From Anaerolineales bacterium (GTDB lineage: Bacteria > Chloroflexota > Anaerolineae > 4572-78 > J111), in assembly GCA_012032575.1 (NCBI GenBank), contig JAAUSP010000089.1, forward strand, positions 1 through 18,087: a stretch of DNA of 18,087 nt, read 5' to 3'. Of this stretch, positions 1 through 15,159 are shown in pieces. How positions within the stretch are numbered: the first letter of the stretch is position 1; each line of letters begins with the position of its first letter. A model generated the notes under the pieces. It was not told where the DNA came from. It saw nothing but the letters and a program-made list of their open reading frames with translations, and ran no database searches. The position numbers and the translations under genes are program-made.

Positions 1-745
1 TTGATTAAATTCAAGCTGGGTATACCCGGTAATTCGAGTGACCGCCTCGCTCATCCATTCCAGATCGGCCGGCCTGCGGGTCAAAATGAAAGGCATAAGC
101 ATAGTCGGAGGTCATTTCCGAAATAACCCGGTAGCGCATTTCCGAGGCGCGCAGCGCCTGTTCGGTTTGACGGGCGCGGGCCAGGGCCTGGGTCAGGTTA
201 CTCACCGCCAGGTGTAGGAATATACCCGCCAGGATAAACAAGGTTGCCAGAACAAACCAGGCTAAAAACGGGGTCATTGGCTCAGTTGGCGGCGGTAAAA
301 GGCCGACCCTATCCGCATAGATGAGCCAGGCAGAGGTTGCCATACTTAATGCTGCTACAACCAGGCCGCTGCGTCTGCCCAGAAGCAGGCCGGACGCCAA
401 ACTCAGGATGATATACGCTCCAAATAACGGCGAAATGAAGCCAATCCCGTGGGTCATAATCATCAGGGTGATTAACCCCCAACCCATCAGTGAAAATTGC
501 CAACTGGCCCATTGTTCCCAGCCGCGCCTGACTAACCCCAACGTGACAACAGCCCAAACAAAGAATAACCCACTCCCAAATGAGTCAAAACTCATATTCT
601 GGGCCGCAAAAATATAGATAAGCAGGTAAATAAGCTGAAACCCAATATTACTCCACAGCAGGATATGCAGCAGAGTGGCTTTTTGGCTTTTAATCTCATC
701 GGAAAATTGGGGCGGGGTCAGATATTTTTTGACCAACTCAACCAT
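1..745 (-). CDS. Six-TM PAS sensor protein, partial and frameshifted
   Basis: Membrane-bound sensor whose C-terminal output lies beyond the window, so kinase or cyclase identity is unknown. About 200 residues form six hydrophobic segments (roughly 22-47, 56-73, 82-103, 106-122, 125-143, 158-180), then a short helical linker (ALARARQTEQALRASEMRYR) into the start of a PAS domain. The PAS frame breaks near bases 65-80. The next frame reads ADLEWMSEAVTRITGYTQLE, a clear PAS continuation open to base 1. A product such as DPQGRPDLEW would be restored by two added G residues, so a sequence error is plausible. The ATG at 743-745 overlaps the stop of the upstream GGDEF/EAL gene (ATGGTTGA), implying translational coupling. 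It is the last visible gene of the minus-strand signalling operon. Family assignment beyond 'membrane sensor plus PAS' is not possible. Confidence 0.8.
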
Positions 746-2544
746 ACATTCGCCCTTCTTGTAGCAGCCGGGTCATCGCTTCGGCAGGCAAAGGGGGACT
801 AAATAGAAAACCCTGCCCTTCGTCACATCCCTGCTCTTGCAAAAACTGGAGTTGTGTCGGTGTTTCAATCCCTTCGGCAATAACCTTTAACCCCAGCCGG
901 CGGGCCATTGTGACAATGGTGGTGACAATGGCGCTGTCGCTGCCGTCATGATTGTAGATATGGCGGATAAAAGACTGGTCTATCTTTAAGGTATGTACAG
1001 GCACTCGCTTTAAGCGGTCTAATGAGGAATAACCCATGCCAAAATCGTCAATGGAGAGATGCAGGCCCATATTTCCAAGCTGCTGCAAGTTACGCAGAGA
1101 TAAGTCAGCCTCATGCAGGGCTGAACCTTCGGTTATCTCCAGTTCCAGCGCCGCTACAGCCAGGCCCGTTTCGGCCAAAATAGATTCAATCCTGACGGGC
1201 AAGTTGGGGTCACGTAATTGGCAGACGGAGAGGTTAACCGCCGCCCGCAGCCAGGGGTAACCCGCCTCATGCCAGCCTTTGAGCTGAGTACAAACGGCCT
1301 GTAACGTCCACACGCCGACCGGCACAATTAAACCGGTGTCATCTAGCAACGTGATAAAATCCTGAGGGGGCGCAAAGGCATAGGCCGGATTTTGCCAGCG
1401 CAGCAGGGCTTCAACGCCAACGATGCGGCCGGTGATTAATGAAACAAGCGGCTGGTAATAAAGTTCGAATTCCTGTCGCGCTAGCGCCTGCCGCAAATGC
1501 CTTTCCATTTCTAATAGGGTTACTGAATTAGCCCGGAGGCCAATCTCAAAAAATTCAATTTGGCCCCGCCCCTGTGTTTTGGCCTGGTGCAGCGCCACAT
1601 CCGTATCACGCACAATCTCCTCAGGCTGCTGGTACAACTGCTTGGGTGAAGTTTTGTCCATTAAAACAATGCCCACACAGGCCGTAACAACAATTTGATG
1701 GTCCTCTATGGCAACAGGTTTGGCGATGGTATCTTGAATCTGGCGGGCCAACCGGCTAATCTCATTGGGGTTGCCGGCATTATTCAAAAGGATGGCAAAT
1801 TCATCTTCACCCAGATAGGCTACCAGGTCGCCAGGCCGTAACATTTGTTGCAGGCGGCGAGCGACGGTAACAAGTAGTTGATTGCCGGCCTGGTAGCCTA
1901 AACCGTCGTTGATGAGCTTGAAACGATCCAGGTCGAGTTGAAGCAGGGCAAAATTGTATTGCTGATCTTGTTGGGTTTGCTGTAGTAACTCGCTCAGATA
2001 AGATAAAAGTAAAGTTCGGTTTGGTAACTTGGTAAGTTGGTCGTAAAGGAAACATCTGGAGTAAACGGCTCTCAACCCGTTCACGGCTAGCGATTTCTGC
2101 TTGAAGCTGCTGGTTAACCTGAGCCAATTCACTGGTGCGCTGGGCTACCAGTTGTTCCAACTGCTTTTCCCCCTGATACTTGATCAGCGCCATCTCGATG
2201 GTGGCATAGAGTTCCTGCTCACTAAAGGGTTTGAGCAAGTAACCAAAAAAATGGGTTTGCTTGACCCGCTGGAGGGTGACATCATCCGCATTGGCGGTCA
2301 GATAAACCACCGGCAGATTAAAGTGTTGCCGGAGATGCAGGGCTGTTTCGACGCCATCCATGCCCCCCGGCAAACGAATGTCCATCAGAACCAGATGCGG
2401 CGCGATTTCCGCCGCCAGGTGGATAGCTTCCTCCCCCGAAGCCGCAACAGCAGGCGCCTCGTACCCCAACTTTTCCAAACTTATCTGTAGAGATAAGCCA
2501 ATAATTCCTTCATCTTCAACGACTAATATCCGTGTTTTGGGCAT
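738..2544 (-). CDS. Response regulator with REC, GGDEF and EAL domains (frameshifted)
   Basis: Cytoplasmic c-di-GMP turnover protein, split into two frames. The first frame (ATG at 2542-2544) is a receiver domain with acidic pair D11/E12, phospho-acceptor D55 (LMDIRLPG), T83 and K105, followed by a coiled coil ending VESRLLQMF. The second frame resumes at LYDQLTKLPNR, the start of a GGDEF domain. One extra base near 2048-2052 explains the break. The GGDEF signature is GEDEF rather than GGDEF, and the usual GHxAGD segment is GYQAGN, so cyclase activity is doubtful. The inhibitory RxxD (RPGD) is kept. The EAL domain keeps EALLRW, NLS, LEITE, DDFGMGYSSL, LKID, AEGIE and QGFLFS, so phosphodiesterase activity is likely. 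It starts 4 bases after the PAS gene and overlaps the sensor gene by 8 bases. Inference: a phosphorylation-controlled c-di-GMP phosphodiesterase. Confidence 0.88.
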
Positions 2545-2548
2545 GGGT

Positions 2549-3010
2549 TCAACTCTTTGCAGTACCAGACTTTAGTCGTTTTTCATTGAGTTTTTGTTGT
2601 GCTTGCTGCTCTCGAAGCGCCTGAGCCGTAACATCGCTGATGCTAACCAGAAGCCGCTGTGGCCGGTGCAGCCATAATTCAATTTCCAAATCAAAGTAGC
2701 GAGCTTCACCGGCCTGTCCAGCCCGATAAATTCGGCACAGCTCAAACGGCCCCCCCTGACCGTGAGCCAGCCGGGTTAAAATGTCTTCAACCCCAATCAA
2801 CTCAGGAAACAAACTGGGTAGGGCCTGACCGACCACGGTTGTGGTTGGCTCGATAGCCCACTGAGCCGCAGCGTCACTGCTCGCCTCAATAATAAGTTGA
2901 GCGTCGGTGAGGAGCCAGGCGGTCCGTGGATGATTGGCCCACTCGGCCTCAACCCAAGCCCTGATTTGTTTATCCATGGCGAATATTAGAGTTTGATCGT
3001 TCAAAATCAC
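2549..3010 (-). CDS. Free-standing PAS-domain protein
   Basis: Small soluble protein consisting of one PAS-like fold and a C-terminal helix. Residues about 30-125 carry the pattern WLLTDAQLIIEASSDAAAQW, then VGQALPSLFP, a mid-domain helix and a closing strand LLVSISDVTAQ, typical of PAS/PAC ends. The last 25 residues (ALREQQAQQKLNEKRLK) look like a coiled coil. No output domain is present, so it may act as an adaptor for a neighbour. The start is uncertain: GTG at 3008-3010 sits 14 bases after the GTPase stop, while ATG at 2975-2977 gives MDKQIRAWVE. Neither has a clear Shine-Dalgarno sequence. The product ends 4 bases before the response-regulator start. Ligand and partner cannot be read from the sequence. 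Confidence 0.72.
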   Translation of the reverse strand: MILNDQTLIFAMDKQIRAWVEAEWANHPRTAWLLTDAQLIIEASSDAAAQWAIEPTTTVVGQALPSLFPELIGVEDILTRLAHGQGGPFELCRIYRAGQAGEARYFDLEIELWLHRPQRLLVSISDVTAQALREQQAQQKLNEKRLKSGTAKS

Positions 3011-3024
3011 CGGGTACTTGAGGT

Positions 3025-3567
3025 TTAGCTGATGAGCAGCCGGGCCAAAGATTGAAAGGCAGCCTCGACCGCATCACCAGTTTTGGCGCTGGTCAGATAG
3101 AGCGGCGCACCCAGACTTGAGGCGGTGGCCTCAAGCTGGGGCAGGGTCAGCCGTTGCTCGTTGATGAGATCGTATTTATTAGCCACTATCACCAGCTTGG
3201 CTCCCGGACTGAGCTTCTGTAGGTCCGAGGCATAACCGTGAAGGTTGGCTAATGTAACCGGCCGGGTGAAATCGCAAACCAAAATAGCCCCGGAAGAACC
3301 GCGCAGATAATTGGCCCGCGCTTGGCTAAACTTTTCGCTGCCGGCCAGGTCCCACAGAATCAGGGTTAGTTGCAGCCCTTGTTCATAAGCAGGCATCACC
3401 ATCGTTTTGCGGTCAATTTTAACCCCGATAGTGCTCAGATATTTGTCCTCAAAAGCACCTTCGACATAGCGGCGCACCAGGCTGGTTTTGCCTACGGCAA
3501 AATCACCCAGCAGGCAAACTTTCTTACTAAACTGAAGCAAAGGTTGTTTAACCTCTTCCTGCAACAA
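3025..3567 (-). CDS. Ras/Rab-like small GTPase
   Basis: Single-domain P-loop GTPase of 180 residues, about the usual size of Ras-like G domains. Visible motifs in order: G1 GDFAVGKT (21-28), switch I with T46 in STIGVK, G3 WDLAGSE (72-78), G4 NKYD (130-133) and G5 TSAK (159-162). The residue matching the Ras catalytic glutamine (DTAGQE) is serine here (DLAGSE), suggesting slow intrinsic hydrolysis or help from a partner. There is no C-terminal prenylation motif or membrane helix. The start is an unusual TTG at 3565-3567, backed by GGAG seven bases upstream; the gene begins 22 bases after the membrane-protein stop. Context suggests that the adjacent longin/roadblock-like membrane protein is its regulator or target, by analogy with MglA-MglB and Rag-Ragulator pairs. 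The class is certain from the motifs; the function is inferred. Confidence 0.93.
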   Translation of the reverse strand: MLQEEVKQPLLQFSKKVCLLGDFAVGKTSLVRRYVEGAFEDKYLSTIGVKIDRKTMVMPAYEQGLQLTLILWDLAGSEKFSQARANYLRGSSGAILVCDFTRPVTLANLHGYASDLQKLSPGAKLVIVANKYDLINEQRLTLPQLEATASSLGAPLYLTSAKTGDAVEAAFQSLARLLIS

Positions 3568-3589
3568 ATGGTATCTCCAATCCGCTAAT

Positions 3590-4999
3590 TTACGGGGTAG
3601 GACTTGGAGTAATCAGCGCTTCCGGAACCGGCGCTAACAGCGTAATCCAACTGCTTTGAACCCAACCAATGATTTCTACATCAGGGTCTTCGGGAAATGG
3701 CACTCTGATGCGGTACCACTTGCCAAATTGGGCCAGAACCTCAATCGGCGCGCCCAGCGGGGCTACCAGGCTGGTCCGTTCCGCGTCATCGGATGGCAGG
3801 TCGCGCAGAAAAACATTCCCCACCATAACCCCGGTAAAGGGTGATGGCGTGGGGGTAAAGGTAGCGGTCGGCCTCGGCGTAGAGGTGGCTGTTGGCGGTT
3901 TGGGGGTAGGGGTCGAAGTGTTGGTTGGTGTGGGCGTGGGCGTATGGGTTGAGGTCGGAGTGGGTGTGACAGTGTAAGTCGGCGTCGGTGTAACCGTGGG
4001 CGTATGGGTTGAGGTCGGGGTGGGCGTATAAGTGGCTGTCGGGGTAGGCGATGGCTGAGCCAGAGCCACCAAACTACTTTCGACGTGCCAAATCCACCCG
4101 CCACACAGCAGCAAGGGTGGTAAAATAATCAACCCACCCATACCAAAAAGTAAAAATCGCTGAAAAGCGGAGAGCGGCCCGCGTTTGGAACTGCTCCGGG
4201 CTACGGGAAAGGCAGCCATTAAAATCTTGTCGGCCGTTTTGATCAACTTGTCATCGCTGCCGTCAAAATTTTTCAGGCTTTCATAATGTTTCTGATGAAT
4301 GGGAATCAGCGCCTGGCGCATTTTCTCCCTGAATCCGGCCGGTTCCACTCCATCCAGCACAATCGCCAGGTAAGCCGCCCCCCCGGCCTGTAGCAAAATA
4401 TGGAGCGACTCGTACTCAATCGCGCCCAGTTCGCCGCTGGTATCCCGGCCAAAAGCCTCGCGGGCAAAATCGCGGATTGCCGTCAACATCCCGCTGACCA
4501 GGTCTCGATTTTCAGCCGGTTCCGGGTCAGCGGAAATATGGTGGATTAACAAACCCGAGTCACGCTGGATCAGGAAAATTTCCTTAATGGAAAAAGGCAG
4601 AGCGGCGCGCAGGTTGTATTCAGCCGATGACACCCCCTGGGCGCGGGCAACCCAACGCCGCACCGGATTTTGCCGCACCCCCTCCCGCAGCCGTGTATCC
4701 ACGGTTTTAGCCAATTCCTGGATGGCCTCGCCCATGGCTTTATTAATCGTTTGGCCGATAACCGGATAAAGGGCGTCAATGATATCTTCGCGGGCCTGAT
4801 AAACCTGGCGGCGCAGCGCTTCGCCGATAACCGGGGCTAACGCCCTGGCAATCTCATCACTCGATTGCGCAATTTGTTCTTCCAGAATATCGGCGATGAC
4901 CGGGCTGATTTTATCTATCAGGGCGTCAGGTTTAAGCAATACCGTGCGCAGTTCATCCAATGCCTCCTGGCCAATGATAGGTTCTGGATTGGCGGGCAT
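3590..4999 (-). CDS. Single-pass membrane protein: 23-residue repeats, longin/roadblock-like domain, TM helix, PT stalk, SH3b
   Basis: Protein of 469 residues spanning the membrane once. Residues 31-99 are three 23-residue repeats sharing a PVI core (prolines 33, 56, 79). Residues about 135-240 ([19 protein letters not shown] and on to a LAIVLDG strand) resemble the longin/roadblock-like domain found, as I recall, in cyanobacterial OmpA-family proteins with the same N-terminal layout. A basic stretch (RSSSKRG) precedes a TM helix at about 282-304, placing the N-terminus inside. Residues about 316-390 are Thr/Pro/Ser rich. Residues about 392-460 look like a bacterial SH3 domain ([21 protein letters not shown], [10 protein letters not shown]) that could bind peptidoglycan. 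A TPSPTP tail follows. The start ATG lies 3 bases after the coiled-coil gene, with AGGAATAAGG upstream. Inference: a transmembrane link between the wall and the neighbouring GTPase. Confidence 0.85.
3936..4018 (-). repeat. 60-base tandem period in the Thr-Pro linker coding region
   Basis: The 23-base plus-strand word at 3936-3958 (GTGGGCGTATGGG then TTGAGGTCGG) recurs exactly at 3996-4018, a period of 60 bases or 20 codons. It encodes repeated [11 protein letters not shown] units in the extracytoplasmic stalk of the membrane protein. Surrounding DNA is rich in related GTGGG words. The period keeps the frame, so copy number can vary without breaking the gene. Confidence 0.8.
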
Positions 5000-5002
5000 A
5001 CC

Positions 5003-5821
5003 TTATTCCTGCGACGTGTGATTTAACCCTTCCAGTAAACCGACCACATTGGTACCCGTTTCGAGCCGGGTGGCTACTTCAATCAGCATGCTGGCCAGGG
5101 CCTTGCGGTCGGTCTTTTGATTGTTCAGGCGTTCGGTCACGCGGCGTAGCTCGGCTAACAAGTCATCAGCGCCCTGCCGGGTGTCACGTTTGAGCGTATC
5201 CAGCTTGCGTTCGTTCTGAATCCGGTTGTCGTCAACTACCGCCCGCAGAGATTTCAATTCATGCTCCTGCTGCAAAACGGTTTTGCGCAGTTCCGTTACC
5301 TGATCCTGGCCGGAATGAGCCAGCATTTCTTGCTGTCGGACCTGGGCATGAAGCTGCTGGAGCATCGTTTCAACCGTGCGCAGCCGTGATATCTCCCGCC
5401 GTAACTCCTCGTCGGCCTGGCGGCTTTCCCGTTCCAGGGTTTCCAGCCGCTGCATTTGGACCTGTTCAAAGTCGCGCATCTGCTCCTGCATGTGGCGTAA
5501 ATCGCCCAGAACGCGATCTACCTGGCGCTTGGTGTCGGCAAAGGTGCGGTCGTATTCCTGCATCTGGTCGCCAAAGATGATCTCACGCACACGGTTAACT
5601 TCAGCGCCGCGCAGCCGCTGCTGGGCCAAATCCGGCCCAAGCAAAAGCTCGCGCACCCGATCCAGCTCCTCTTGCGAGGCTGGTTTAGCGGCTGCCTTTT
5701 GCTCCACCGGCACCGGTACCGGCCTGACTGCTGGCGTTTCCTCAGGAGGCGTTGTGAGCTTTGAGCCTTCGTCGGTCCCCAGTTTGGCTTGAGTATGGTT
5801 GTTTGTCATTTGCTGGTTCAT
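5003..5821 (-). CDS. Coiled-coil protein, first gene of the GTPase operon
   Basis: Soluble 272-residue protein with no signal peptide or membrane segment. Residues 1-50 are a low-complexity Pro/Ala-rich tail. Residues 55-64 (RVRELLLGPD) and 77-86 (RVREIIFGDQ) repeat one motif 22 residues apart. A related motif (LRTVLLKPD) occurs at residues 17-25 of the membrane protein encoded next. From about 90 to 235 the protein is rich in Glu, Gln, Arg and Leu in a long coiled-coil pattern. The C-terminus has a compact conserved-looking segment, DRKALASMLIEVATRLETG. I recall similar coiled-coil proteins with this C-terminal signature in cyanobacteria, but cannot name a family. The start ATG at 5819-5821 has AAGGAG seven bases upstream. 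Three bases separate it from the next gene. Likely a scaffold or effector of the GTPase module (inference). Confidence 0.8.
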   Translation of the reverse strand: MNQQMTNNHTQAKLGTDEGSKLTTPPEETPAVRPVPVPVEQKAAAKPASQEELDRVRELLLGPDLAQQRLRGAEVNRVREIIFGDQMQEYDRTFADTKRQVDRVLGDLRHMQEQMRDFEQVQMQRLETLERESRQADEELRREISRLRTVETMLQQLHAQVRQQEMLAHSGQDQVTELRKTVLQQEHELKSLRAVVDDNRIQNERKLDTLKRDTRQGADDLLAELRRVTERLNNQKTDRKALASMLIEVATRLETGTNVVGLLEGLNHTSQE

Positions 5822-5941
5822 GGGTTTGCTCCTTGCATCTAATAAACAAAGTCAGTTAATAAAACCGGGTGGAGTGACACACGCCCCCGGATCGAAAACG
5901 CCATTTTGACTATAACATAAAACATGAGGGGCACCATCAGC

Positions 5942-5962
5942 ATTGTGTAAAGATTGTGTAAA
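5942..5962 (-). promoter_or_regulatory. Candidate OmpR/PhoB-type operator (11-base direct repeat)
   Basis: The plus strand has ATTGTGTAAA twice with a period of 11 bases. Read on the minus strand, this is TTTACA-N5-TTTACA, about 120-140 bases upstream of the first gene of the signalling operon. This spacing matches direct-repeat sites bound by PhoB/OmpR-family regulators; Bacillus PhoP sites are TT(A/C/T)A(C/T)A with 11-base periods. No convincing -35/-10 pair was found between it and the gene, and no such regulator is encoded in the window. Confidence 0.35.
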
Positions 5963-6007
5963 TATTCCAGAGAAATGATGCTCGCCTGACTAAGAAATGA
6001 GAATTAA

Positions 6008-6089
6008 TTACTTGTGTGCTTCGCCTGAGATTGGAGATTACGACTAAAAATCTCCCAATCTCCAATCTCCCAAATGCACAAGTTATTTA
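6008..6089. repeat. Intergenic word-repeat palindrome (GAGATTG type)
   Basis: A perfect 13-base inverted repeat, GAGATTGGAGATT (6029-6041) against AATCTCCAATCTC (6059-6071), with a 17-base loop. The arms are themselves built of repeated GAGATTG/AATCTCC words. An outer pair, AATTACTTGTG (6008-6018) and CACAAGTTATT (6079-6089), matches at 10 of 11 positions, giving a nested palindrome. It lies in the 471-base gap between the signalling operon and the URO-D-like gene. The rest of that gap (about 6090-6260) shows no gene. Confidence 0.75.
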
Positions 6090-6267
6090 CGCCCCATTCC
6101 TAAACAGTGAGTGTCCCCCTGGCAGAAGCGGGAAACTCACGCCTGGACTCAAAGAGGCCACCGCCCGAACGGCGGTAGGGCCAAACAGCCCTCGGGCAGG
6201 CCAGCGCAGGGCGAATAAAGTATGATCCGTTGTGTGTATCTGGTCTACCTATGATACCACATTTCTC

Positions 6268-6282
6268 CCCTGGAATCCAGGG
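6268..6282 (-). terminator. Weak hairpin after the URO-D-like gene
   Basis: CCCTGG-AAT-CCAGGG lies 11 bases past the stop of the minus-strand URO-D-like gene. The stem is six base pairs of high GC, but no T-run follows on the minus strand. It could be a weak terminator or chance. Confidence 0.25.
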
Positions 6283-6292
6283 TATTTGAGGA

Positions 6293-7459
6293 CTAATATC
6301 GGCCATAATCCCTGGCAGTTTGACACATCAATTCCAGCATGCCCGGATTGTTGTGGAAAATTTGCCCGGTAGAGCGCAAAATATAGCCGCCCCCTTCCGC
6401 TGCCGCATCAATACAACGTTTGACTTCGTCCCGCACGTCATCGGGATTGTCACTCTTGAGGATGTGCTCATTGAAACCGCCAAACAAACAGACCCTCTGC
6501 CCCACCCGCTGCTTAACATCGGCCAGCTCAAAGTCGCCCGACGTCTTTTTGGAGGTGATCGTTTCCAGCGCGTCGGGGCCGGTATCAATCATATCTTCCA
6601 GAAATTGAGTCCCCCGGCCGCAGTTGTGCAGACTCACCAGATAGCCGGCGGCGTGCGCGGCGGCAATACACTCTTGCTGGTACGGCTGGATGAACCCCCG
6701 ATAGACCTTGGGAGCCAGCCCCACCCCCACCCAGGTTTCATTCATCGAGATGGAGTGCAGCCCTGTTTCGCCCAAACGCCGGTAATAAACCTTGAGCCAA
6801 TCGGTGCATATCCGCATCAAACTATGCACAAACTGAGGCCGGTCGTAGATGTCCATCGAAAGATTGACAATCCCCCGCACCTGCGCCGCCATATCCCACG
6901 GGCCGGGACAGTGATGCAGCCACCAGGCTTTCTCGCCTACTTTTTCAACCATCCCTTTTAAGATGGACATGTCATACAATTCGGCGCTGGGAAAATAGCG
7001 CAGGGCTTCCAGCTTGGCTTCCGGCTTGTCGCCTTTGAGCATATAATCCTGCGAAGCCGTGCCGTAGCCATCCTCGGTGCGATAGCTGTAATCCAGGTCG
7101 CCCGCCGGGGTGCGGATGTGATGCTGGTGTTCGCGCCAGCCTTCGCCCCGCGCCCGTTCATAAAAAGTTTCGTGCCAGGTATCGGTTTCCAGCGGCCGGG
7201 GAAAAAGCATGCGTGGCCAAATCTCCATCTCGCCGATGTGCTGGCTGTAGGTGGTAATCATCGGGTCGAGGCCAAAATCGGCCTGCATTTTGACAATGCT
7301 GCCCAGCGGATCGTCAATCCACCATTGCAGCATGTCTAACATAGACTTGTTTTCCGGCTTGAGCGGCCGGATCAGCGGCAACCCCAACCAGCAGTGGACC
7401 GGCACCCGGTCGGGGATGCCCCGTTTAAAGGCGATTCGAGTTCGTTCGGCTACTTGCAT
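6293..7459 (-). CDS. Uroporphyrinogen decarboxylase superfamily protein (not HemE-like)
   Basis: Intact 388-residue protein resembling the URO-D fold family that includes corrinoid-dependent methyltransferases such as MtaA and CmuA. Features are an N-terminal MQVAERTRIAFKRGIPDRVP, a mid-protein SMNETWVGVGLAPKVYRGFI, the motif LHNCGRG (His278, Cys280) matching the HxC zinc-ligand pair of MtaA-like enzymes, and GGGYILRSTGQI near the C-terminus, where methyltransferases often carry a third Cys. That Cys is not seen here. The N-terminal arginine signature of true uroporphyrinogen decarboxylases is also absent, so a haem role is unlikely. The ATG at 7457-7459 has GAGGAG eight bases upstream. It is divergently transcribed from a DUF4432 epimerase-like gene and sits near a sugar-acid dehydratase, suggesting a carbohydrate-locus role. 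The reaction is unknown. Confidence 0.82.
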   Translation of the reverse strand: MQVAERTRIAFKRGIPDRVPVHCWLGLPLIRPLKPENKSMLDMLQWWIDDPLGSIVKMQADFGLDPMITTYSQHIGEMEIWPRMLFPRPLETDTWHETFYERARGEGWREHQHHIRTPAGDLDYSYRTEDGYGTASQDYMLKGDKPEAKLEALRYFPSAELYDMSILKGMVEKVGEKAWWLHHCPGPWDMAAQVRGIVNLSMDIYDRPQFVHSLMRICTDWLKVYYRRLGETGLHSISMNETWVGVGLAPKVYRGFIQPYQQECIAAAHAAGYLVSLHNCGRGTQFLEDMIDTGPDALETITSKKTSGDFELADVKQRVGQRVCLFGGFNEHILKSDNPDDVRDEVKRCIDAAAEGGGYILRSTGQIFHNNPGMLELMCQTARDYGRY

Positions 7460-7495
7460 CGGCGATTCTCCTCAAAGGCTGTTAAGATAGTCATT

Positions 7496-7501
7496 ATTAT
7501 A
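7496..7501 (-). promoter_or_regulatory. Candidate -10 box for the URO-D-like gene
   Basis: A perfect TATAAT on the minus strand, about 37 bases upstream of the ATG, in an AT-rich patch of the divergent region. The hexamer 17 bases further upstream (TTTTGA) is a poor -35 match, so the call rests on the -10 box and position. Confidence 0.4.
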
Positions 7502-7524
7502 ATTTGAGTTCAACTACTTCAAAA

Positions 7525-7553
7525 TTGACAAAGCCAGGTGAATAAATTATCTT
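7525..7553 (+). promoter_or_regulatory. Candidate sigma-70-type promoter for the DUF4432 gene
   Basis: TTGACA at 7525-7530, a 17-base spacer, then TATCTT at 7548-7553. The expected transcript start lies about 40 bases before the ATG at 7603. AGGAGG at 7587-7592 is the ribosome-binding site. It overlaps the likely upstream region of the divergent gene, so joint regulation is possible. Confidence 0.5.
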
Positions 7554-7602
7554 CTATCCACCAGCCCAAACCCTGATCCAAAATCCAGGAGGAAACACTA
7601 TT

Positions 7603-8652
7603 ATGCCCCACCTTTTTGGCAAAACCTATTCCAGCGCCGACCTGCGCCGGCGCGTCGGCGATATGTCGCAACTGGCCGGTATCCGCGCCATGAGCCTCAA
7701 CGACGGCCCTGAAACCGGGGTGCGCGCCCTGGATGTGCGCACCGGCAGCGGCCTGCGCTTTACCGTTTTACCGGATCGCGGCCTGGATATTGCCGACGCC
7801 GAGTGGAACGGCACGTCGCTGGTGTGGCATTCTTCCACCGGCATCACCCATCCCGCTTATTTTGAGTCTGCCGGGATAGGCTTCCTGCGCGGTTTTTACG
7901 GCGGACTGCTGGTCACTTGCGGCTTTATGAATGTCGGCGTGCCCACCGAGGACGGCGGCGAACACTTTGGCCTGCATGGCCGGGCCAGCAACCTGCCGGC
8001 GAAACAGGTTCATTACGAAACTGAATGGCAGGGCGATGACTACATTCTGCGGATCAGCGGCAAAGTGCGCGAGACTCGTCTTTTTGGCGAAAATGTGCTG
8101 CTGACCCGCACCCTCACCACCAAACTGGGCAGCCGGACTATTGCCATCACCGACGTATTTGAAAACCAGGGCTTTGCCCCCACCCCGCTGATGGTGCTGT
8201 ATCACATCAATACCGGCTTTCCCCTGCTCGACGACAGCAGCGAACTGCTCATCAATTCGGACCTTATCCCCCGTGATGCCGAAGCCGCCAAAGGGCTGGA
8301 CGTAGCCAGACAGGGCGCACCACCCACGCCCGACTTTAAAGAACAGGTCCACCAGCACCGCGTCACCCCGGCGGCCGATGGCTGGGCCACGGCTGTTCTG
8401 CTCAACCGCCACTTCAATGGCGGCCAGGGTCTGGGCCTGAGCGTCCGTTACCGCCCCGACGAACTGCCCTACTTCTGGCAGTGGCGCATGGTCGGCGAGG
8501 GCGCGTATGTGATGGGGCTGGAACCGGCCAACTGCAGCGTGATGGGCCGGGGTGAAGAACGTCGCCAGGGCCACCTGCCGCTGCTGGCAGCGGGCGAGCA
8601 AAAAACGCATCACCTTGAAATTGAGGTTCTCACCCCGCCGTTTCAGGTGTGA
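7603..8652 (+). CDS. DUF4432 aldose 1-epimerase-like protein
   Basis: Intact 349-residue cytoplasmic protein of the galactose-mutarotase fold, matching DUF4432 in layout. The motif VLPDRGLDIADAEWNG (about 55-70) is typical of the family's early strand. HFGLHGRAS (121-129) and LYHINTGFPLL supply histidines in the positions where mutarotases hold sugar-binding or catalytic His. GLEPANCSVMGR (306-317) holds Glu307, the probable catalytic base by analogy with aldose epimerases. Strong AGGAGG precedes the ATG, and a good promoter lies upstream. It is divergent from the URO-D-like gene and convergent with the broken dehydratase. The substrate is not determinable; family members sit in varied sugar and sugar-acid catabolic loci, which fits this context. 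Confidence 0.85.
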   Translation: MPHLFGKTYSSADLRRRVGDMSQLAGIRAMSLNDGPETGVRALDVRTGSGLRFTVLPDRGLDIADAEWNGTSLVWHSSTGITHPAYFESAGIGFLRGFYGGLLVTCGFMNVGVPTEDGGEHFGLHGRASNLPAKQVHYETEWQGDDYILRISGKVRETRLFGENVLLTRTLTTKLGSRTIAITDVFENQGFAPTPLMVLYHINTGFPLLDDSSELLINSDLIPRDAEAAKGLDVARQGAPPTPDFKEQVHQHRVTPAADGWATAVLLNRHFNGGQGLGLSVRYRPDELPYFWQWRMVGEGAYVMGLEPANCSVMGRGEERRQGHLPLLAAGEQKTHHLEIEVLTPPFQV

Positions 8653-8686
8653 GTAATTTCCTGGTTGAAATTTGTAAAAACGTGTT

Positions 8687-8729
8687 GCGTGTTGCGTGTT
8701 CCGTTGATTTTACGGAACACGCAACACGC
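8687..8729 (-). terminator. 18-bp perfect hairpin between convergent genes
   Basis: GCGTGTTGCGTGTTCCGT (8687-8704) pairs perfectly with 8712-8729 across a 7-base loop. Read on the minus strand, the stem is followed after a few bases by a run of five T residues (AAAAA at 8676-8680 on plus), so it could end transcription of the dehydratase remnant. On the plus strand there is no T-run. The left arm extends a tandem GTGTTGC word (from 8682), placing it in the same class as the other word-repeat hairpins here. Confidence 0.55.
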
Positions 8730-8777
8730 TCATCAAAAACCTCTTTGGCGAAACTTTACGTTTACACTTTCCCCCCT

Positions 8778-10017
8778 TCACCGCCCCAACACCTTCCGAC
8801 CGGCCTCCAGTAACTCGATGATGGCCTCGACATCGTAGACACAGCCCCCCCAGACGCCGCCGCTGGCGTTTTGCAGCGCCGCCCACAGCCGGGTGTCATC
8901 CGGCAGATTCGTATCGGGGGCCAAATCAGGATGGGGCGGGCGGGTGGCCAGCACGGCTGCGCCCTGCTCCGGGCTGTACCGCTGGCCGTCGTGTCCAATC
9001 AGGTCAAGGCTGCCGGTCAGCTCGTTCCGGTCAATCACAATCCGGATGGTATCCCCGTCGCGCACCCGGCCAATCGGACCGCCGGCCAGTGCTTCCGGCC
9101 CAATGTGACCAATACACGCGCCGGTGCTGACCCCGCTGAAGCGGGCATCGGTGATCAGGGCGACCTCTTTGCCCGACGGCAAAAATTTGAGCGCCGACGT
9201 AACCTGATATGTCTCCTCCATGCCGCAGCCGAGCGGGCCGCGCCCCATCAGCACCATAATCTCCCCCGCTTCGATCCGCTGTCCGGCTTGCCCTTTAATC
9301 GCGGCAATCGCCGCCCTCTCGCTGCTAAAAACCCGGGCCGGACCAATTTTGCGATAAACCCCGTCGCTGTCCACCACACTCGGATCAATCGCAGTGCTCT
9401 TGACCACCGCCCCCTCCGGGGCCAGGTTGCCCTGCGGAAACGTGACCGTGCTGGTCAGTCCCCGCTCTCGCGCCGTGGCCGGACTCATAATCACGTCATC
9501 AGGGTCAATCCCATCCTGCGAGAAGAGACGCTCGCGCAGCCGTTTGCGCCTCTCACTTCCTTCCCACAACTCCAGCATCTCGCCCAGTGCCCGCCCCTGG
9601 ACGGTCATGGCCTCGAGCCGGAGCAATCCCTGCCGGCGGAGGTGCAGCATCACTTCGGGCACGCCGCCGGCCAGAAATACCTGCACGGTGGGGTGGTTGC
9701 GGGGACCGTTGGGCAAAACATCCATCAGCCGGGGCGTCAGCCGGTTGAGCCGGGTCCAATCGGCTACAATGGGGCGGGGCAGTCTGGCGGCATGGGCAAT
9801 CGCTGGAATGTGCAGCAGCAGGTTGGTGCTGCCGCTAAAAGCCCGTGTGTGACCATCGCGTTGTATTTTGACTCAACCCAAAAAGGTCAGCGCTGGGGGC
9901 ATTGAGCAAAAATGCCTCATCCAGCGGCAGGCGGCCTTCCGGTCCTTTGGTTGCTGTTTAAACTTCGTATAGAGAAATATTTATTGAATCTATCGCTATG
10001 GGTTCAAATTCAGCCAT
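8778..10017 (-). pseudogene. yjhG: D-xylonate dehydratase (YjhG/YagF family, IlvD/Edd superfamily), internally deleted
   Basis: Remnant of a sugar-acid dehydratase. The N-terminus starts at ATG 10015-10017 (MAEFEPIAIDSINISLYEV), meets a TAA at 9958-9960, then continues in frame as GPEGRLPLDEAFLLNAPSAD and LFGLSQN. From memory, E. coli YjhG reads GPDGELPL...SGDLFGMTMN here. Directly after SQN (about 9864) the sequence jumps to NAMVTHG, then after a one-base loss near 9842-9844 to [17 protein letters not shown] and an otherwise complete C-terminal half ([38 protein letters not shown]) to the stop at 8778. Roughly 250 residues are missing, including all three segments that carry the Fe-S cysteines in this superfamily, so no active enzyme can be made. 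The intact C-terminal frame has ATG at 9723-9725 but no clear ribosome site. Confidence 0.88.
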
Positions 10018-10099
10018 GTCATTTCGACCGAAGAGAGAAATCTTCGAGGCCAATGTAGTCCGGTAGGGATTTCTCTGCCTACGGCCTCGAAATAACATG
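10015..10099. mobile_element. MITE-like palindrome with CATGTCATTTCGA ends
   Basis: Terminal arms CATGTCATTTCGA (10015-10027) and TCGAAATAACATG (10087-10099) are inverted with one mismatch. Inner inverted pairs are AGAGAAATC against GATTTCTCT and TTCGAGGCC (10043-10051) against GGCCTCGAA (10083-10091). No coding capacity. GTCATTTCGA-ended palindromes are, as I recall, common dispersed repeats in several environmental phyla. The left arm contains the start codon of the dehydratase remnant, so the element separates that gene from any older upstream signals. Confidence 0.65.
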
Positions 10100-10220
10100 A
10101 GGGTTGGGCAGTTATTGGACAATAAGAGAAAACAGCATCCGTTGAACCGTTTTTTACCAGTAGGGCACAACAGGTGTAAAATGGGAGATGAACCATCACA
10201 GCAACCTATCGGTTTGACCT

Positions 10221-13052
10221 ATGCCCACGCCGCTATTAACCACCAAACTCTACATTCCCCCCGGCCCGCGCCCAACTTGTACCCCGCCCCCGCCTGATCG
10301 AACGGCTGAATGAAGGGCTGACCGGCACGCCAGGCGTGACCCTTATCTCCGCGCCCGCCGGTTACGGCAAAACTACTCTGGTCAGCGAATGGCTCCATGT
10401 GTTGGGGGTCAGGGGTCAGGGGTCGAGAGGGCGGTGAAATCTAAACCTAACTCCCAACCCCTCGACCCTCAACCCCGATTTCCTGGCTCTCTTTGGAACC
10501 CGCCGATAATGATTTGACCCGCTTTCTCAGTTATCTCATCGCTGCGTTCCAGCAAATCAATCCAGCGGTGGGTCAGACCAGTCAAGCGCTGCTGCAAACG
10601 GGGGGACCGCATCTCCTCAACCCGGAGAGTATTATTTCCAGCCTGATTAATGATCTCGCCGAGAGTGGCGAAGTCCGGCAGGTTTTGGTGCTGGACGATT
10701 ACCACGTTATCGAAACCAAAGCCATCCATGAGACGCTGATCTTTCTGCTGGATCATCTGCCCCCGCACCTGCATCTGCTGCTGGTCAGCCGGACGGTGCC
10801 GCCGCTGCCGCTGTCGCGCCTGCGGGTGCGCCGCCAGATAACCGAAATTCACGCGGCTGATTTGCGTTTTACCCTGGCCGAAAGCATCGAGTTTCTCAAT
10901 ACGGTCATGGGCCTGGGCCTGGCCGAGGACGATATTGCCGCCCTGGAAGCTCGCACGGAAGGCTGGATTGCCGGCCTGCAACTGGCGGCATTGTCGTTGC
11001 AACAGCAGGCGGACCGGTCGGGCTTTATCAAAGCCTTCAGCGGCGATGACCGCTACGTGCTTGATTACCTGCTGGACGAAGTGTTCAGCCGGCAGTCTGC
11101 GCCGATCCAAACCTTTTTGCTGCAAACCTCTATTTTAGACCGTCTCTGCGGCCCTCTGTGCGATGCAGTATTAGGAAAGGATGAAGGCCGCGAAGCGAGG
11201 ATGAAGGATGAAGATACTGGTTTTTTCATCCTTCATCCTTCATCCTTCATCCTTGAACAGTTGGAGCAGGCCAACCTTTTTATCGTCCCGCTCGATACCA
11301 AACGGGAGTGGTATCGCTACCATCCGCTGCTGCTCGATTTGCTGCGCCATCGCCTCCACCAGACGGTTCCGGCCGGCTCCTGGGAAATAGCGGCCTTGCA
11401 CGTCCGCGCCGCTAACTGGTACAGCCGGCATGGCTTGACCGCCGAGGCCCTGACCCATCTCTTTGCCGCCGAAGCCTTTCTCCAGGCCGCCGATTTGGTG
11501 GAGCAGATCGGGGCAACCACGCTGTGGGAACGGGGTGAAATAGCGACGCTCCTGAACTGGCTGACTCAACTACCGCCGGAACTGCTCCATACCCGGCCCA
11601 AATTGTGCCTTTATTACGCCGAAACCCTGTACTTAACCGGGCAACTGAGCGCTATCGAACCCTTTCTGAATTCGGTGGAACGTTATTTACAGCAGGCAGG
11701 CGTAGTTCAGGCCGAAACAAAAAATATACAGGGTGAAGTCATGCCGATTCGGGCGCTGGTAACTGGCGTCCAGGGGCAGCCGGCGCAAATGACCGATGCC
11801 ATTGCTTTGACCCATCAAGCCCTGGCGCTTCTGGACCCCGACGAACCGCGACTTCGTGGCCTGTTGACCATCGGCCTGGCCGAAGCCTATTATCTGAACG
11901 GCCGGATGCTGGAAGCCGCCGAAAATTACCAGCGAGCGATTGAGCTGGGGCAGGCCGGTCAGAACTCTTTCCTGGTCATTGCCGGGCTGACCCGTCTCTC
12001 CGAAGTTCGCCTTATCCAGGGGCAGTTACGCCAGGCCGCCGAACTTTGCCGGCAGATGCGACAATTGACCTTGCCCGGTGCGCATGTCGCCGGCAATTGG
12101 GTCTGGAGCCAACTGCTGCGGGAGTGGAATCAACTCGAGGCGGCCAAAGAACAGGCGCAGGAGTGTCTTCATCATGGCCGGCTCGAAGGAAACCTGCGCA
12201 TCATCATCCAGGCTAATATCACTCTGGCGCACATTCTCCAGGCTCAGGGCGACAGTGCGGCGGCGCACGAGGCGGTTCAGGCTACAGCCCGCCTGCCACA
12301 GCAGCAGCCTGCCGCCGGGGATTTGCCTTCAACGGCCACCCATCAAGCCTGGCTGTGGCTGCGCCAGAACAATCTGGCCGCCGTGGCCCACTGGGCCAAA
12401 TCGCAGCAGTTGCAGCCGGACGACAGCCCCACTTACCGCCACGAAACCGAATATTTATTATTAGCCCGCCTGTTACTCGCCCAGGGCCAGGCTCAAGCCG
12501 CCGTTGACCTGCTGGAACGGCTGCGAACAGCCGCCGCAGCGGACGGACGGCAAGGCCGGATGATCGAAGCGCTGCTGCTGCTGGCGTTGGCCCAACAGGC
12601 GTTGGCAAATCTGCCCGCCGCCCTCGACAGCCTGAGTCGCACTCTTACCCTGGCCGAGCCGGAAGGTTATGTTCGTCTGTTTGTGGATGAAGGTCCCCCG
12701 CTGCTGAATCTGCTGAAACTGGCGGTTGAGCAGAACTATCCTCTCAGCCAAACCTATCTGGCCCGCCTGCTGGGCCGCCTTCGGAGAGGAAACGGACGAA
12801 CCCGATGTGGAGAGCGAGACTGATACCCCACTGTCCGCCGTTCCGTCGCCGCTGGTGGAACCGCTGACCAAACGCGAACGGGAAATTCTGCGGCTCATCG
12901 CCGCCGGTCTCTCCAATGCCGACATCGCCGGGCAGCTTTTTCTCAGCATGGGCACGGTCAAAACCCATACCCGCAACATCTACGGCAAGCTGGGCGTTGT
13001 CAGCCGGACTCAGGCGGTTGCTACGGCCAGAGCCTTAAACCTCCTAAATTGA
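10221..13052 (+). CDS. LAL/MalT-type LuxR-family transcriptional regulator (frameshifted)
   Basis: Large STAND-ATPase regulator, about 940 residues when frames are joined. Order: N-terminal [11 protein letters not shown] typical of the family, then after one extra C in a six-C run (10257-10262) [14 protein letters not shown] and Walker [11 protein letters not shown] (10351-10380). A palindromic insertion follows (10402-10476). A third frame then carries [18 protein letters not shown], Walker [12 protein letters not shown], the family signature [15 protein letters not shown], and [10 protein letters not shown]...[16 protein letters not shown] long helical TPR-like region runs to about 12770. 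One extra G near 12768-12772 shifts into the last frame with [20 protein letters not shown] and [14 protein letters not shown], a textbook LuxR helix-turn-helix. A second insertion lies in frame at 11176-11254. The start ATG has only a weak ribosome site. It is upstream of an efflux operon it might control, but no inducer can be read. The gene may be intact in reality if the indels are errors. Confidence 0.87.
10402..10476. repeat. Word-repeat palindrome (GGGGTCA type) within the LuxR gene
   Basis: The left arm is a tandem of GGGGTCA words (GGGGTCAGGGGTCAGGGGTC, then GAG). The right arm, CCCAACCCCTCGACCCTCAA plus CCCC, reads GGGGTTGAGGGTCGAGGGG in reverse, an imperfect complement. It sits between Walker A ([10 protein letters not shown]) and [11 protein letters not shown], where LAL proteins normally have a short loop. 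TGA at 10435-10437 closes the Walker A frame. Confidence 0.65.
11176..11254. repeat. In-frame word-repeat palindrome (GGATGAA type) within the LuxR gene
   Basis: The left arm AAGGATGAAG...AGGATGAAGGATGAAG (to 11213) and right arm of four TTCATCC words (11225-11254) pair perfectly over about 15 bases with an 11-base loop. Coding frame is kept, adding [20 protein letters not shown] and PSSFIL just before [14 protein letters not shown]. Relatives of this family would go almost directly from DAVLG to the EQLEQANLF helix, so this looks inserted. Confidence 0.7.
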
Positions 13053-13083
13053 GGTCATGTAGTTCCAATAAAATCACCGATTT

Positions 13084-13141
13084 CGTGAAACGTGATGCGT
13101 AAGGGTTTTATGCAAAAAATCATCACGCATCACGTTTCACG
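13084..13141. repeat. 17-bp perfect inverted repeat after the LuxR gene (CGTGATGCGT type)
   Basis: CGTGAAACGTGATGCGT (13084-13100) pairs perfectly with 13125-13141 across a 24-base loop, and the word GCATCACG repeats just beyond. It starts 31 bases past the LuxR stop. It could act as a terminator-like structure, but the T content after the stem is low. A smaller hairpin, ATCTACC/GGTAGAT, lies at 13219-13238. Confidence 0.7.
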
Positions 13142-13307
13142 CATCACGCGGCCAAGCTTTTGGGATGATTTAATCCTGGAACTCCTTTAATCCTCCTCAT
13201 CCTCAAAAATACCCCCCTATCTACCACTTTAGGTAGATGAGTCATCATCCTCTTTGTGGTTTAATCACCAATATCACGAATGATACCAATGACCTCGGCC
13301 ATCTATA

Positions 13308-13423
13308 CCCCCGAATGAATTCGGGGTCTAAGACAAAAAACCCGTTAAAACGGGTTAGATGGTGGGCCCAACCCGTTTTAACGGGTTTTCCATATCAGGC
13401 ATCGAATTCATTCGATGGCTGAT
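13308..13423. repeat. Nested palindrome of three hairpins in the 416-base intergenic gap
   Basis: Hairpin A: CCCCGAA-TGAA-TTCGGGG (13309-13326). Hairpin B: a 20-base perfect inverted repeat, 13337-13356 against 13370-13389, each arm itself nearly palindromic (AACCCGTT-AA-AACGGGTT). Hairpin C: 13394-13406 against 13411-13423, 12 of 13 matched, loop TTCA. The cores of A (CGAATGAATTCG, 13312-13323) and C (CGAATTCATTCG, 13403-13414) are exact inverses, so A and C can also pair around B. The remaining gap 13053-13468 shows no gene. Confidence 0.8.
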
Positions 13424-13468
13424 AGCCGAAACGAAAACTACAGCCACGATAGAAAGACAAACTAAGCT

Positions 13469-13753
13469 ATGAAGCAGCTAAAAGCTTTCTCAAGTTCAGC
13501 CCAACGGTTGAGCCTCGACTGCCCGGCGACGTACCGCATTACCATCCAAGGGCGGCTGGACCGGGAATGGTCAGATTGGTTTGAAGGAATGTGTCTGACC
13601 CCCGCCGCCGACTCGCATGGCGCTACCACCATCCTGACCGGCCTGGTCAGAGATCAGGCGGCGCTGCACGGCCTGCTGAATGCCCTGTACGGCCTGGGCT
13701 TGCCGCTACTGGACCTCACTTGTCTCGAAATTAACCCGACCCCTGAAAAATAG
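13469..13753 (+). CDS. Small conserved-looking hypothetical protein
   Basis: Soluble 94-residue protein with no signal peptide or helix-turn-helix. The central pattern YRITIQGRLDREWSDWFEGM, then TTILTGLVRDQAALHGLLNAL and YGLGLPLLDLTCLEI, suggests a compact alpha/beta fold. I recall similar small proteins in Chloroflexota and cyanobacteria, without an assigned function. The ATG at 13469 lacks a strong ribosome site. The gene ends 14 bases before the lipoprotein start, so it is probably co-transcribed with the efflux genes. Codon use and GC match its neighbours. Confidence 0.65.
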   Translation: MKQLKAFSSSAQRLSLDCPATYRITIQGRLDREWSDWFEGMCLTPAADSHGATTILTGLVRDQAALHGLLNALYGLGLPLLDLTCLEINPTPEK

Positions 13754-13767
13754 AAGGAGAATTTTTG

Positions 13768-15147
13768 ATGAAACCGTCCGCTTTCCTATTTTTTTGCTTA
13801 TGCCTGAGCCTGACCCTGGCAACCACCGCTTGTAACCCGGTGGCCGAGCCGGCGGTGGCTGCCGCGCCTCCGGCCGAAGTTGGTACCTCCGTCGAGGTGA
13901 CTCCGGTTAAGACCGGCAGCATCGCCCTGGTTTTTGATTATTCCGGCACCCTCCAGGCCCAGAGTGATGTGACTTTGGCCCCCCGCGTCTCCGGCCAGAT
14001 TCAGACCGTGCTGGTGGAGGCCGGCGACCCGGTCACGGCAGGCCAGCCGATTGCCCTCCTCGACCGGGACGTTCCCGCCGCTCAGTTGAAACAGGCCGAG
14101 GCTGTCCTGTCTCTGGCTCAGCTTAAGCTGGATAAAATGAACGAAGGGCGCGTCCGGAAGAACTCGAGGCAGCCCAATCCGCTTACCAGATCACCCAGGG
14201 CGCGTTGCAAGATGTGCAGCTTATTGACGACGACGAACGAACTACCGCCGCCGCTACGCTGGCCAATGCCCAGGCGGCCTTAAAACTGGCCCAGTCCGAG
14301 TACGACAAAATCGCCTGGGCCGGCCAGGTGGGCCAAACCCCCCAGGCGCTGACCCTGGAAAAAGCCACCAATGCCTACGAGCAGGCGCTCTCGGCCTACC
14401 AGTTGCAGACCAACCCTTCGGAGGCGCAGCTTGCCCCGTTGCAGGCCCAGTTGACCAAAGCCAAACTCGATCTGGCCCTGGCCAAACAGCCATTCCGCCC
14501 GGTTGACTTTGCGATGGCCAAAGCGGGCATCCAGCAGGCCGAAGCCGCCGTCGAGCTGGCCCAACTACAGCTCGATTACACTACCCTGCGCGCTCCCTTT
14601 GATGGCATTGTCGGCGAGGTTTACATCCACCAGGGCAGCATGGTTGACACCAAATCGGCGGTGGCCCTGTTCATCTCCAACCAGGTCGAGGTCGCGGTCA
14701 ACATCGAAGAGAGCCGGCTGGGCAGGTGGCGAAAGGGCAGCACGCCTCGCTGCACGTCTCGGCGTACCCCGGCGCGGAATTCCCCGGCCTGATTACCAGC
14801 GTCGCTCCGCTGCCGATCAAAAGACGCACACCTTCGTGGTCAAAGTGACGCCGGCTGACCCCAAAAATATGCTTCGCAGCGGCATGTATGCCGATGTGTC
14901 ACTGCTGGTGGATGAAAAAACCCAAACGATGCTGGTGCCGCGCTCGGCAGTGGTTACGGTTGACAGCCAGCGGCTGGTCTACCGGGTCAACGAGGGCCAG
15001 GTTGAGCAGGTCAATGTTACCACCGGCCTCAGCAACGATACAGAAATTGAAATCATCTCCGGCCTCAAAGCAGGCGACAGCATCGTCGTTACCGGGCAGT
15101 CCTCGTTGCAGGATGGGTCGAAGGTAAAGATTGTGCCGGGGTTGTGA
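13768..15147 (+). CDS. RND efflux membrane-fusion lipoprotein (three frameshifts)
   Basis: Periplasmic adaptor of an RND pump, about 460 residues when joined. A hydrophobic leader ends in a lipobox-like TTAC with Cys22. Next comes a first barrel/lipoyl segment (FDYSGTLQAQSDVTLAPRVS, then GQIQTVLVEAGDPVTAGQPI). The helical hairpin follows (LEAAQSAYQITQ, AQAALKLAQSEYDKI, QAEAAVELAQLQLDYTTLRA), then the second lipoyl half PFDGIVGEVYIHQGSMVD, the barrel domain and a C-terminal region (LVPRSAVVTVDSQRLVYRVN, ISGLKAGDSIVVTG). Frame changes near 14146-14149, 14718-14722 and 14805-14808 are each repaired by adding one G to a G run or GC step. The start is ATG 13768, with AGAAGGAGA at 13752-13760. It ends 12 bases before the RND gene. 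The pump substrate is unknown. Confidence 0.87.
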
Positions 15148-15159
15148 GGATAAATTATT

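Follow-up and report, generated by a model that had tools for sequence, protein, structure and literature searches.

A Group 1 Rup-like GTPase locus of Chloroflexota with a predicted longin-like domain in its membrane protein and a glutamine-bearing PAS adaptor

Group 1 Rup GTPases are the closest described relatives of the system considered here, a minus-strand gene run on an 18,087-nucleotide contig of an Anaerolineales bacterium (Chloroflexota; assembly GCA_012032575.1, contig JAAUSP010000089.1, positions 1 to 18,087; hereafter the window). According to Wuichet and Sogaard-Andersen (2014, PMC4316618), their neighbourhoods combine the GTPase with a coiled-coil gene, a protein bearing a conserved domain and an output module. 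The conserved domain, to which the accessible part of that paper gives no domain assignment, is often followed by a transmembrane (TM) helix and an OmpA peptidoglycan-binding domain. The N-terminal region of the output module contains an invariant Gln, the GTPase lacks the Gln of its G3 motif, and supply of this residue in trans was suggested. In the same text, no MglB partner is foreseen for Rup GTPases, MglA is noted to lack the G3 Asp, and no Rup GTPase is described as experimentally characterized by 2014. Rup proteins, Group 1 foremost, are very similar or closest to eukaryotic Rab, Ran, Ras and Rho (PMC4316618, PMC4915359). Among the papers listed in searches of mostly non-subscription literature, we found neither an experimental Rup study nor a longin assignment of a Rup partner. 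As for longins themselves, PMC4917890 reports a “Longin/Roadblock” group in Bacteria and longins within a PAS/GAF superfamily of all domains of life, its accessible part not naming this family, and PMC3521125 proposes that longins derive from MglB-type domains and met Rabs later.

The window holds a variant of the Group 1 Rup system as it appears in the accessible part of PMC4316618. Five successive minus-strand open reading frames (ORFs), separated by 3, 22, 14 and 4 bases, encode a coiled-coil protein (5003..5821, 272 residues), a membrane protein (3590..4999, 469 residues), a small GTPase (3025..3567, 180 residues), a free-standing PAS adaptor (2549..3010, 153 residues) and a REC receiver (1807..2544), which is followed by a GGDEF-EAL ORF (738..2132). 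The likeness extends to a Ras-type GTPase with the G3 Asp and without the G3 Gln, a coupled coiled-coil gene, a conserved domain with a TM helix and a wall-binding C-terminus, an output module with an invariant Gln in its N-terminal region (Gln139 here), a GGDEF/EAL or histidine kinase output, and Chloroflexi among the hosts. The window differs in its SH3b instead of OmpA head, in its free-standing adaptor, in an inner domain that we predict to be longin-like and that PMC4316618, as far as accessible, left unassigned, and in further outputs among its relatives (sigma-54, HD, class III cyclase and a partial SpoIIE match). We infer that this inner domain corresponds to the conserved domain of PMC4316618, and Gln139 probably corresponds to the Gln of its output modules. 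The original prediction had proposed a new module passing wall contact to cyclic di-GMP (c-di-GMP); its gene run stands in coordinates and gaps, with the REC-GGDEF-EAL protein falling into two ORFs, and its novelty does not, such neighbourhoods having been described in 2014. Our preferred reading, to which we give a probability of about 60%, is Group 1 Rup-type signalling in which a membrane-anchored longin platform regulates a Rab-like GTPase, Gln139 of the PAS adaptor completes the GTPase active site, and an output follows; the folds are predicted, and we infer the binding, the signal direction, the wall sensing and the Gln donation.

The gene pairing at the centre of this reading is conserved. 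Residues 1-310 of the membrane protein retrieved at least 626 related proteins, some of the best 120 with OmpA and BON domains, and a contig scan yielded at least 80 loci, mostly from Chloroflexota, with KSB1, Calditrichota and unclassified bacteria, and with Chloroflexus islandicus (L014) and Oscillochloris sp. ZM17-4 (L009) among them as named strains. A GTPase profile match (>60 bits) lies within 4 kb of the membrane-protein gene in 72 of the 80 loci (49 downstream, 16 upstream and 7 on the opposite strand). Chance adjacency is unlikely because Ras matches above 90 bits are so few per genome (one in 24, two in five and four in one of 30 genomes). Among the eight loci lacking a GTPase, the contig ends within ∼250 bases after the gene in five (L011, L047, L055, L064 and L070), and L041 starts 55 bases from a contig end. 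Of 201 genomes from the phylum, 8 match the longin profile and 9 carry the GTPase at ≥190 bits (11 at the E-value limit). Each of the 8 with the longin profile also has the GTPase at ≥190 bits, the two genes lying within 2 kb of each other in seven and on two contigs in the eighth (Fisher 1.6e-13, for genomes that are related, include the centre genome by construction and are assumed to be the same 201 for both profiles). Gene order varies and the gene set is constant. GTPase and membrane-protein homologues co-occur, so the rare co-occurrence that would have refuted the original prediction is not seen; the module is real, conserved and more frequent than chance would give.

The GTPase is Ras-like as originally predicted (Pfam Ras, E 4e-34). 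Its closest PDB relatives are Rab-21 (E 5e-27), Rab5, Sec4 and a Thorarchaeota Rab, and the best 60 of 558 PDB matches are Rab, Ypt or Sec4 proteins plus one Ran. We aligned 72 family GTPases, namely the window protein and those of 71 of the 80 loci (L027 was left out by ORF picking, although its GTPase is included in the 72 loci above, and L003 is a fragment); a further alignment, A6, holds 65 of the 71 others. The G3 Asp is invariant (72/72; Asp73 in the window, within the motif WDLAGSE), and the position of the Ras catalytic Gln holds Gln in none of the 72, being Ser in 33, Gly in 22, Ile in nine, Glu in three and other residues in five; in the window it is Ser77 (codon 3337..3339, minus strand). 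Judged by its sequence, the window protein is Rab/Rup-like and not MglA-like. In one related genome (G001, locus L002), in which a single longin gene was found, a further GTPase of this family (C1:76401-76907, 235 bits) lies apart from that gene.

For the membrane protein, an AF2 model built on 74 sequences gives a long N-terminal cytoplasmic helix (residues 24-107, 4679..4930) with a conserved ALYPxIG motif (76-82), a longin-like domain (136-267, 4199..4594; alpha/beta core 137-263), a helix (278-314, 4058..4168) whose hydrophobic sequence holds the single TM segment, a disordered proline/threonine (PT)-rich stalk of low model confidence (pLDDT; 315-387, 3839..4057) and a beta domain (388-454, 3638..3838, pLDDT mostly >90) that we take as SH3b, all on the minus strand. 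The proposed architecture is thus borne out by the model in its core, TM helix, stalk and beta domain, the Pfam match of the window head being below cut-off (SH3_4, E 0.006). A wall-type outer domain does recur in the family: among 81 aligned members, SH3_3 is found in 39 at E 0.01 or better, OmpA in 14 and BON in 11 (overlaps not resolved). Its fusion to the inner domain, originally considered unusual, is therefore common.

The modelled inner domain has the longin topology (strand-strand-helix-three strands-two helices), with two helices at its C-terminal end, as in longins (PMC10933270, as far as accessible). The model has helices on both sides of the domain; a roadblock would have an N-terminal helix and one C-terminal helix. 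In Foldseek, longins rank above MglB, which appears at rank 39, and the VIA-align matches listed are longins; that the 50 listed include no MglB carries no weight. The predicted fold thus places the domain within the longin/roadblock superfamily, as proposed, and it fits longin better than MglB/roadblock. The MglA/MglB parallel of the original prediction is not favoured, the inner domain being closer to longin in the model and the GTPase Rab/Rup-like. A search for small proteins with the longin profile gave 599 matches, of which the best 120 look like members or fragments of the same family; few of these are named, and none pointed to archaeal or eukaryotic longins.

The free-standing adaptor was described as a PAS protein; its model has a PAS fold, and its Pfam match remains below cut-off (PAS_4, E 0.012). 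As a candidate roadblock it was rejected, showing no such similarity and a PAS fold instead. In alignment A3, which comprises the window and 57 of the 80 loci, with adaptors taken as the ORF beside the GTPase or membrane-protein gene, the sole invariant column (58/58) is Gln139 (codon 2594..2596, minus strand), within the helix that follows the PAS domain. Counted from the PAS Asp position, it stands at a constant spacing of 13 (57/57). A later survey of all 80 loci found the adaptor in 70, and Gln139 is kept in all 80 adaptor matches reaching its column, out of 82; the two without the column were left out (L048, cut by its contig, and one of two L074 pieces). L074 (98 residues) was also left out of alignment A5.

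Outputs vary among relatives. In L001 and L002, which count as one case because they are 93% identical in DNA, an adaptor is fused to PAS-GGDEF-EAL, and the fusion lies upstream of the coiled-coil gene at a distance of 160 bases; in L056 the adaptor is fused to GGDEF. Elsewhere sigma-54, HD and class III cyclase outputs occur, together with a partial SpoIIE match, so c-di-GMP is one among several outputs of this module family. The proposed c-di-GMP output is accordingly right in that such an enzyme is linked to the module in this lineage, and too narrow for the family. In the window, the GGDEF-EAL ORF has a GEDEF motif (1797-1811, a degenerate cyclase) and an intact EALLRW (Pfam GGDEF, E 8e-41; EAL, E 9e-68), and the REC ORF (Pfam Response_reg, E 4e-22) appears to be a piece of the same split gene; its four nearest GGDEF-EAL homologues besides the window (90, 87, 82 and 74% identical) are unbroken REC-GGDEF-EAL proteins of 600-601 residues. 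A GGDEF-EAL protein with GEDEF is also known from Caulobacter, the phosphodiesterase CC3396, where GTP bound by GEDEF activates the EAL domain (PMC4823724, as far as accessible); the window protein differs in having a REC domain, in adjoining a GTPase module and in its broken gene. Separately, near the module in seven loci (L013, L025, L037, L046, L056, L060 and L072), an ORF for a class III nucleotidyl cyclase contains a second Gln-bearing adaptor, which may allow a single GTPase locus to act on two outputs.

Under the preferred reading, the SH3b head would lie outside on the PT stalk and attach the membrane protein to the wall, with the longin-like domain inside. Helped by the coiled-coil protein, that domain would recruit the Rab-like GTPase and set its nucleotide state, and the GTP form would dock on the helices of the PAS adaptor. 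Gln139 would then complete the active site of a GTPase without its own glutamine, a donation first proposed in PMC4316618 as far as its accessible text goes; contact with the output would therefore both switch it and end the signal, making the output effector and GTPase-activating protein (GAP) at once. In the window, the output would most likely be lowered c-di-GMP, since a separate adaptor is encoded beside the REC-GEDEF-EAL protein. Wall heads and outputs are swapped freely and the longin domain, the GTPase and the adaptor Gln are kept, which is how a signalling core should look. More ambitiously, the family might be a genuine bacterial Rab-like GTPase/longin pair acting across the membrane, with interchangeable wall heads, a near-universal Gln-lending PAS-helix adaptor and seven or so output types, a picture we put forward only tentatively.

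Several observations weigh against the preferred reading. Longin family profiles gave only subthreshold matches to the 81 members (Intu_longin_1 in 4, best E 0.019; Sybindin in 1, E 0.014), DUF2292, which has no plausible link, scores as well (4/81, E 0.0021), and in a PDB sequence profile search with the longin alignment the matches to Bet5 (E 0.93) and to a designed protein (E 0.65) fell short of significance. No GTPase lies beside the gene in L016 and L051 although their contigs are uncut nearby, their genomes (G007 and G023) having a strong Ras-type GTPase elsewhere; the survey of 80 loci found no adaptor in L032, L041 and L051. In one alternative, the inner domain is an MglB-type roadblock and the system a variant of MglA/MglB. 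Profile-profile comparison with ten roadblock stretches from the same genomes gave a weak hhalign match in plausible register (probability 12.9%, pairwise E 0.0022, 65 columns), and MglB does occur in the Foldseek list. Longins, however, stand above it there and fill the listed VIA-align matches, the two C-terminal helices are longin-like, Robl_LC7 matches one of 81 members (E 0.13) and none significantly, and the GTPase retains the G3 Asp that MglA lacks (per the accessible text of PMC4316618); after Pfam, profile-profile comparison and fold ranking, a roadblock is not favoured, and we consider it very unlikely. In another, Gln139, which sits in the post-PAS helix, would have a structural role in a coiled-coil signalling helix instead of serving the GTPase as a catalytic residue. 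Six of 30 unrelated PAS_4 domains also have Gln at this spacing, a further point against Gln donation (L094, L095, L098 and L106 look misplaced by the motif rule yet were kept in the 30). A purely structural role is nevertheless doubtful given the only invariant column among 58 sequences, the fixed spacing of 13 and the retention of Gln in free-standing adaptors without a downstream kinase.

The output and the input can likewise be read otherwise. REC (1807-2544) and GGDEF-EAL (738-2132) sit in different frames, not in one ORF, and no REC-GGDEF-EAL gene adjoins the module in L001 or L002; both points count against the c-di-GMP output of the preferred reading, and the second suits a separate pathway, with the REC-GGDEF-EAL protein driven by the six-TM sensor encoded next to it and the output of the free-standing adaptor encoded elsewhere. 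REC implies kinase input and the majority of family outputs are not c-di-GMP enzymes, but the gap in the window is only 4 bases, and adaptors are fused to PAS-GGDEF-EAL in the single L001/L002 case and to GGDEF in L056, so we rate this separation as less likely than not. A somewhat better minority candidate makes the membrane protein a static wall anchor or positional scaffold, comparable to polarity landmarks, and not a wall-contact sensor, the GTPase being switched by a cytoplasmic input such as a PAS ligand. PAS domains frequently bind ligands. With an adaptor in 70 of 80 loci there is a candidate for such an input, and the interchangeable heads (SH3_3, OmpA and BON) suit generic anchoring, but a longin domain would be superfluous in a pure anchor.

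Among eukaryotic systems, the longin-Rab pairs DENN, Mon1-Ccz1, TRAPP and Fuzzy-Inturned (PMC3521125, PMC10933270, as far as accessible) resemble the window in genetically pairing a Rab-like GTPase with a longin fold, and these complexes are among the structure matches of the inner domain. They differ in that the predicted bacterial longin is membrane-anchored on a wall-type stalk, sequence similarity is not significant, and the pairing here comes from gene linkage. Myxococcus xanthus MglA/MglB likewise unites a bacterial Ras-superfamily GTPase with a roadblock/longin-superfamily partner tied to signalling systems, but MglB is a separate roadblock GAP and MglA, of another GTPase family, lacks the G3 Asp. 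Actinobacterial conservons (CvnA-D; PMC13343842, in its accessible part) have a membrane sensor, a roadblock protein and a GTPase in one operon, an analogy drawn by PMC4316618; there the sensor CvnA is kinase-like and the roadblock CvnB a protein of its own, whereas here the predicted longin is fused to the membrane protein. The predicted longin-like assignment and the Gln-bearing output adaptor make the system newly testable. If the partner is a longin, the proposal of an MglB-type origin of longins (PMC3521125, in the part available) becomes testable in bacteria, including a named Chloroflexus strain, and if the pair is genuine, Rab-like GTPase/longin pairing would predate eukaryotic membrane traffic or have been shared with it by transfer. 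The invariant adaptor Gln offers one mutable residue for asking whether an effector supplies the catalytic residue of the GTPase.

The coiled-coil gene also seems to recur: in 77 of 80 loci, an ORF of at least 90 residues has its end no more than 200 nt from the start of the membrane-protein gene. Charged composition is alike in most, not all, of these, homology was compared by tblastn with the window protein only, and the count may include chance ORFs (L013, L016, L052 and L066 differ in composition). By eye, a short LxxLRxxLL-like motif precedes the helices of both the 5003-5821 and the 3590-4999 proteins and could be a shared docking site. In three loci an OmpR-type response regulator gene lies directly upstream of the coiled-coil gene (L021:3759-4481, L028:298-1167 and L044:6306-7136).

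Downstream of the run, the minus-strand ORF 11..745 has no Pfam match; its product has six TM segments and the beginning of a PAS domain, and it may lie outside the module. As originally proposed, this six-TM PAS sensor overlaps the preceding gene, sharing 8 bases with the end of the EAL ORF. Its PAS part, which extends beyond the window edge, seems to have lost its frame close to that edge. The window assembly looks indel-prone, and the frame breaks likely stem from this, because an efflux adaptor (13765-15147, three ORF pieces, two of which match adaptor families) and an AcrB-type pump (15160-17589 and 17544-18086, two frames) are also broken. Promoter-like and terminator-like sites in 1-7600 are not commoner than in shuffled sequence, and Rfam gave no match in the window at gathering cut-offs. 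In 6293-9725, perhaps a catabolic cluster, a URO-D family protein and a DUF4432 protein adjoin a dihydroxy-acid/sugar-acid dehydratase represented by its C-terminal part, the ORF being short at the N-terminus, and 10493-12823 encodes a large MalT-like regulator (TPR_MalT, E 4e-58).

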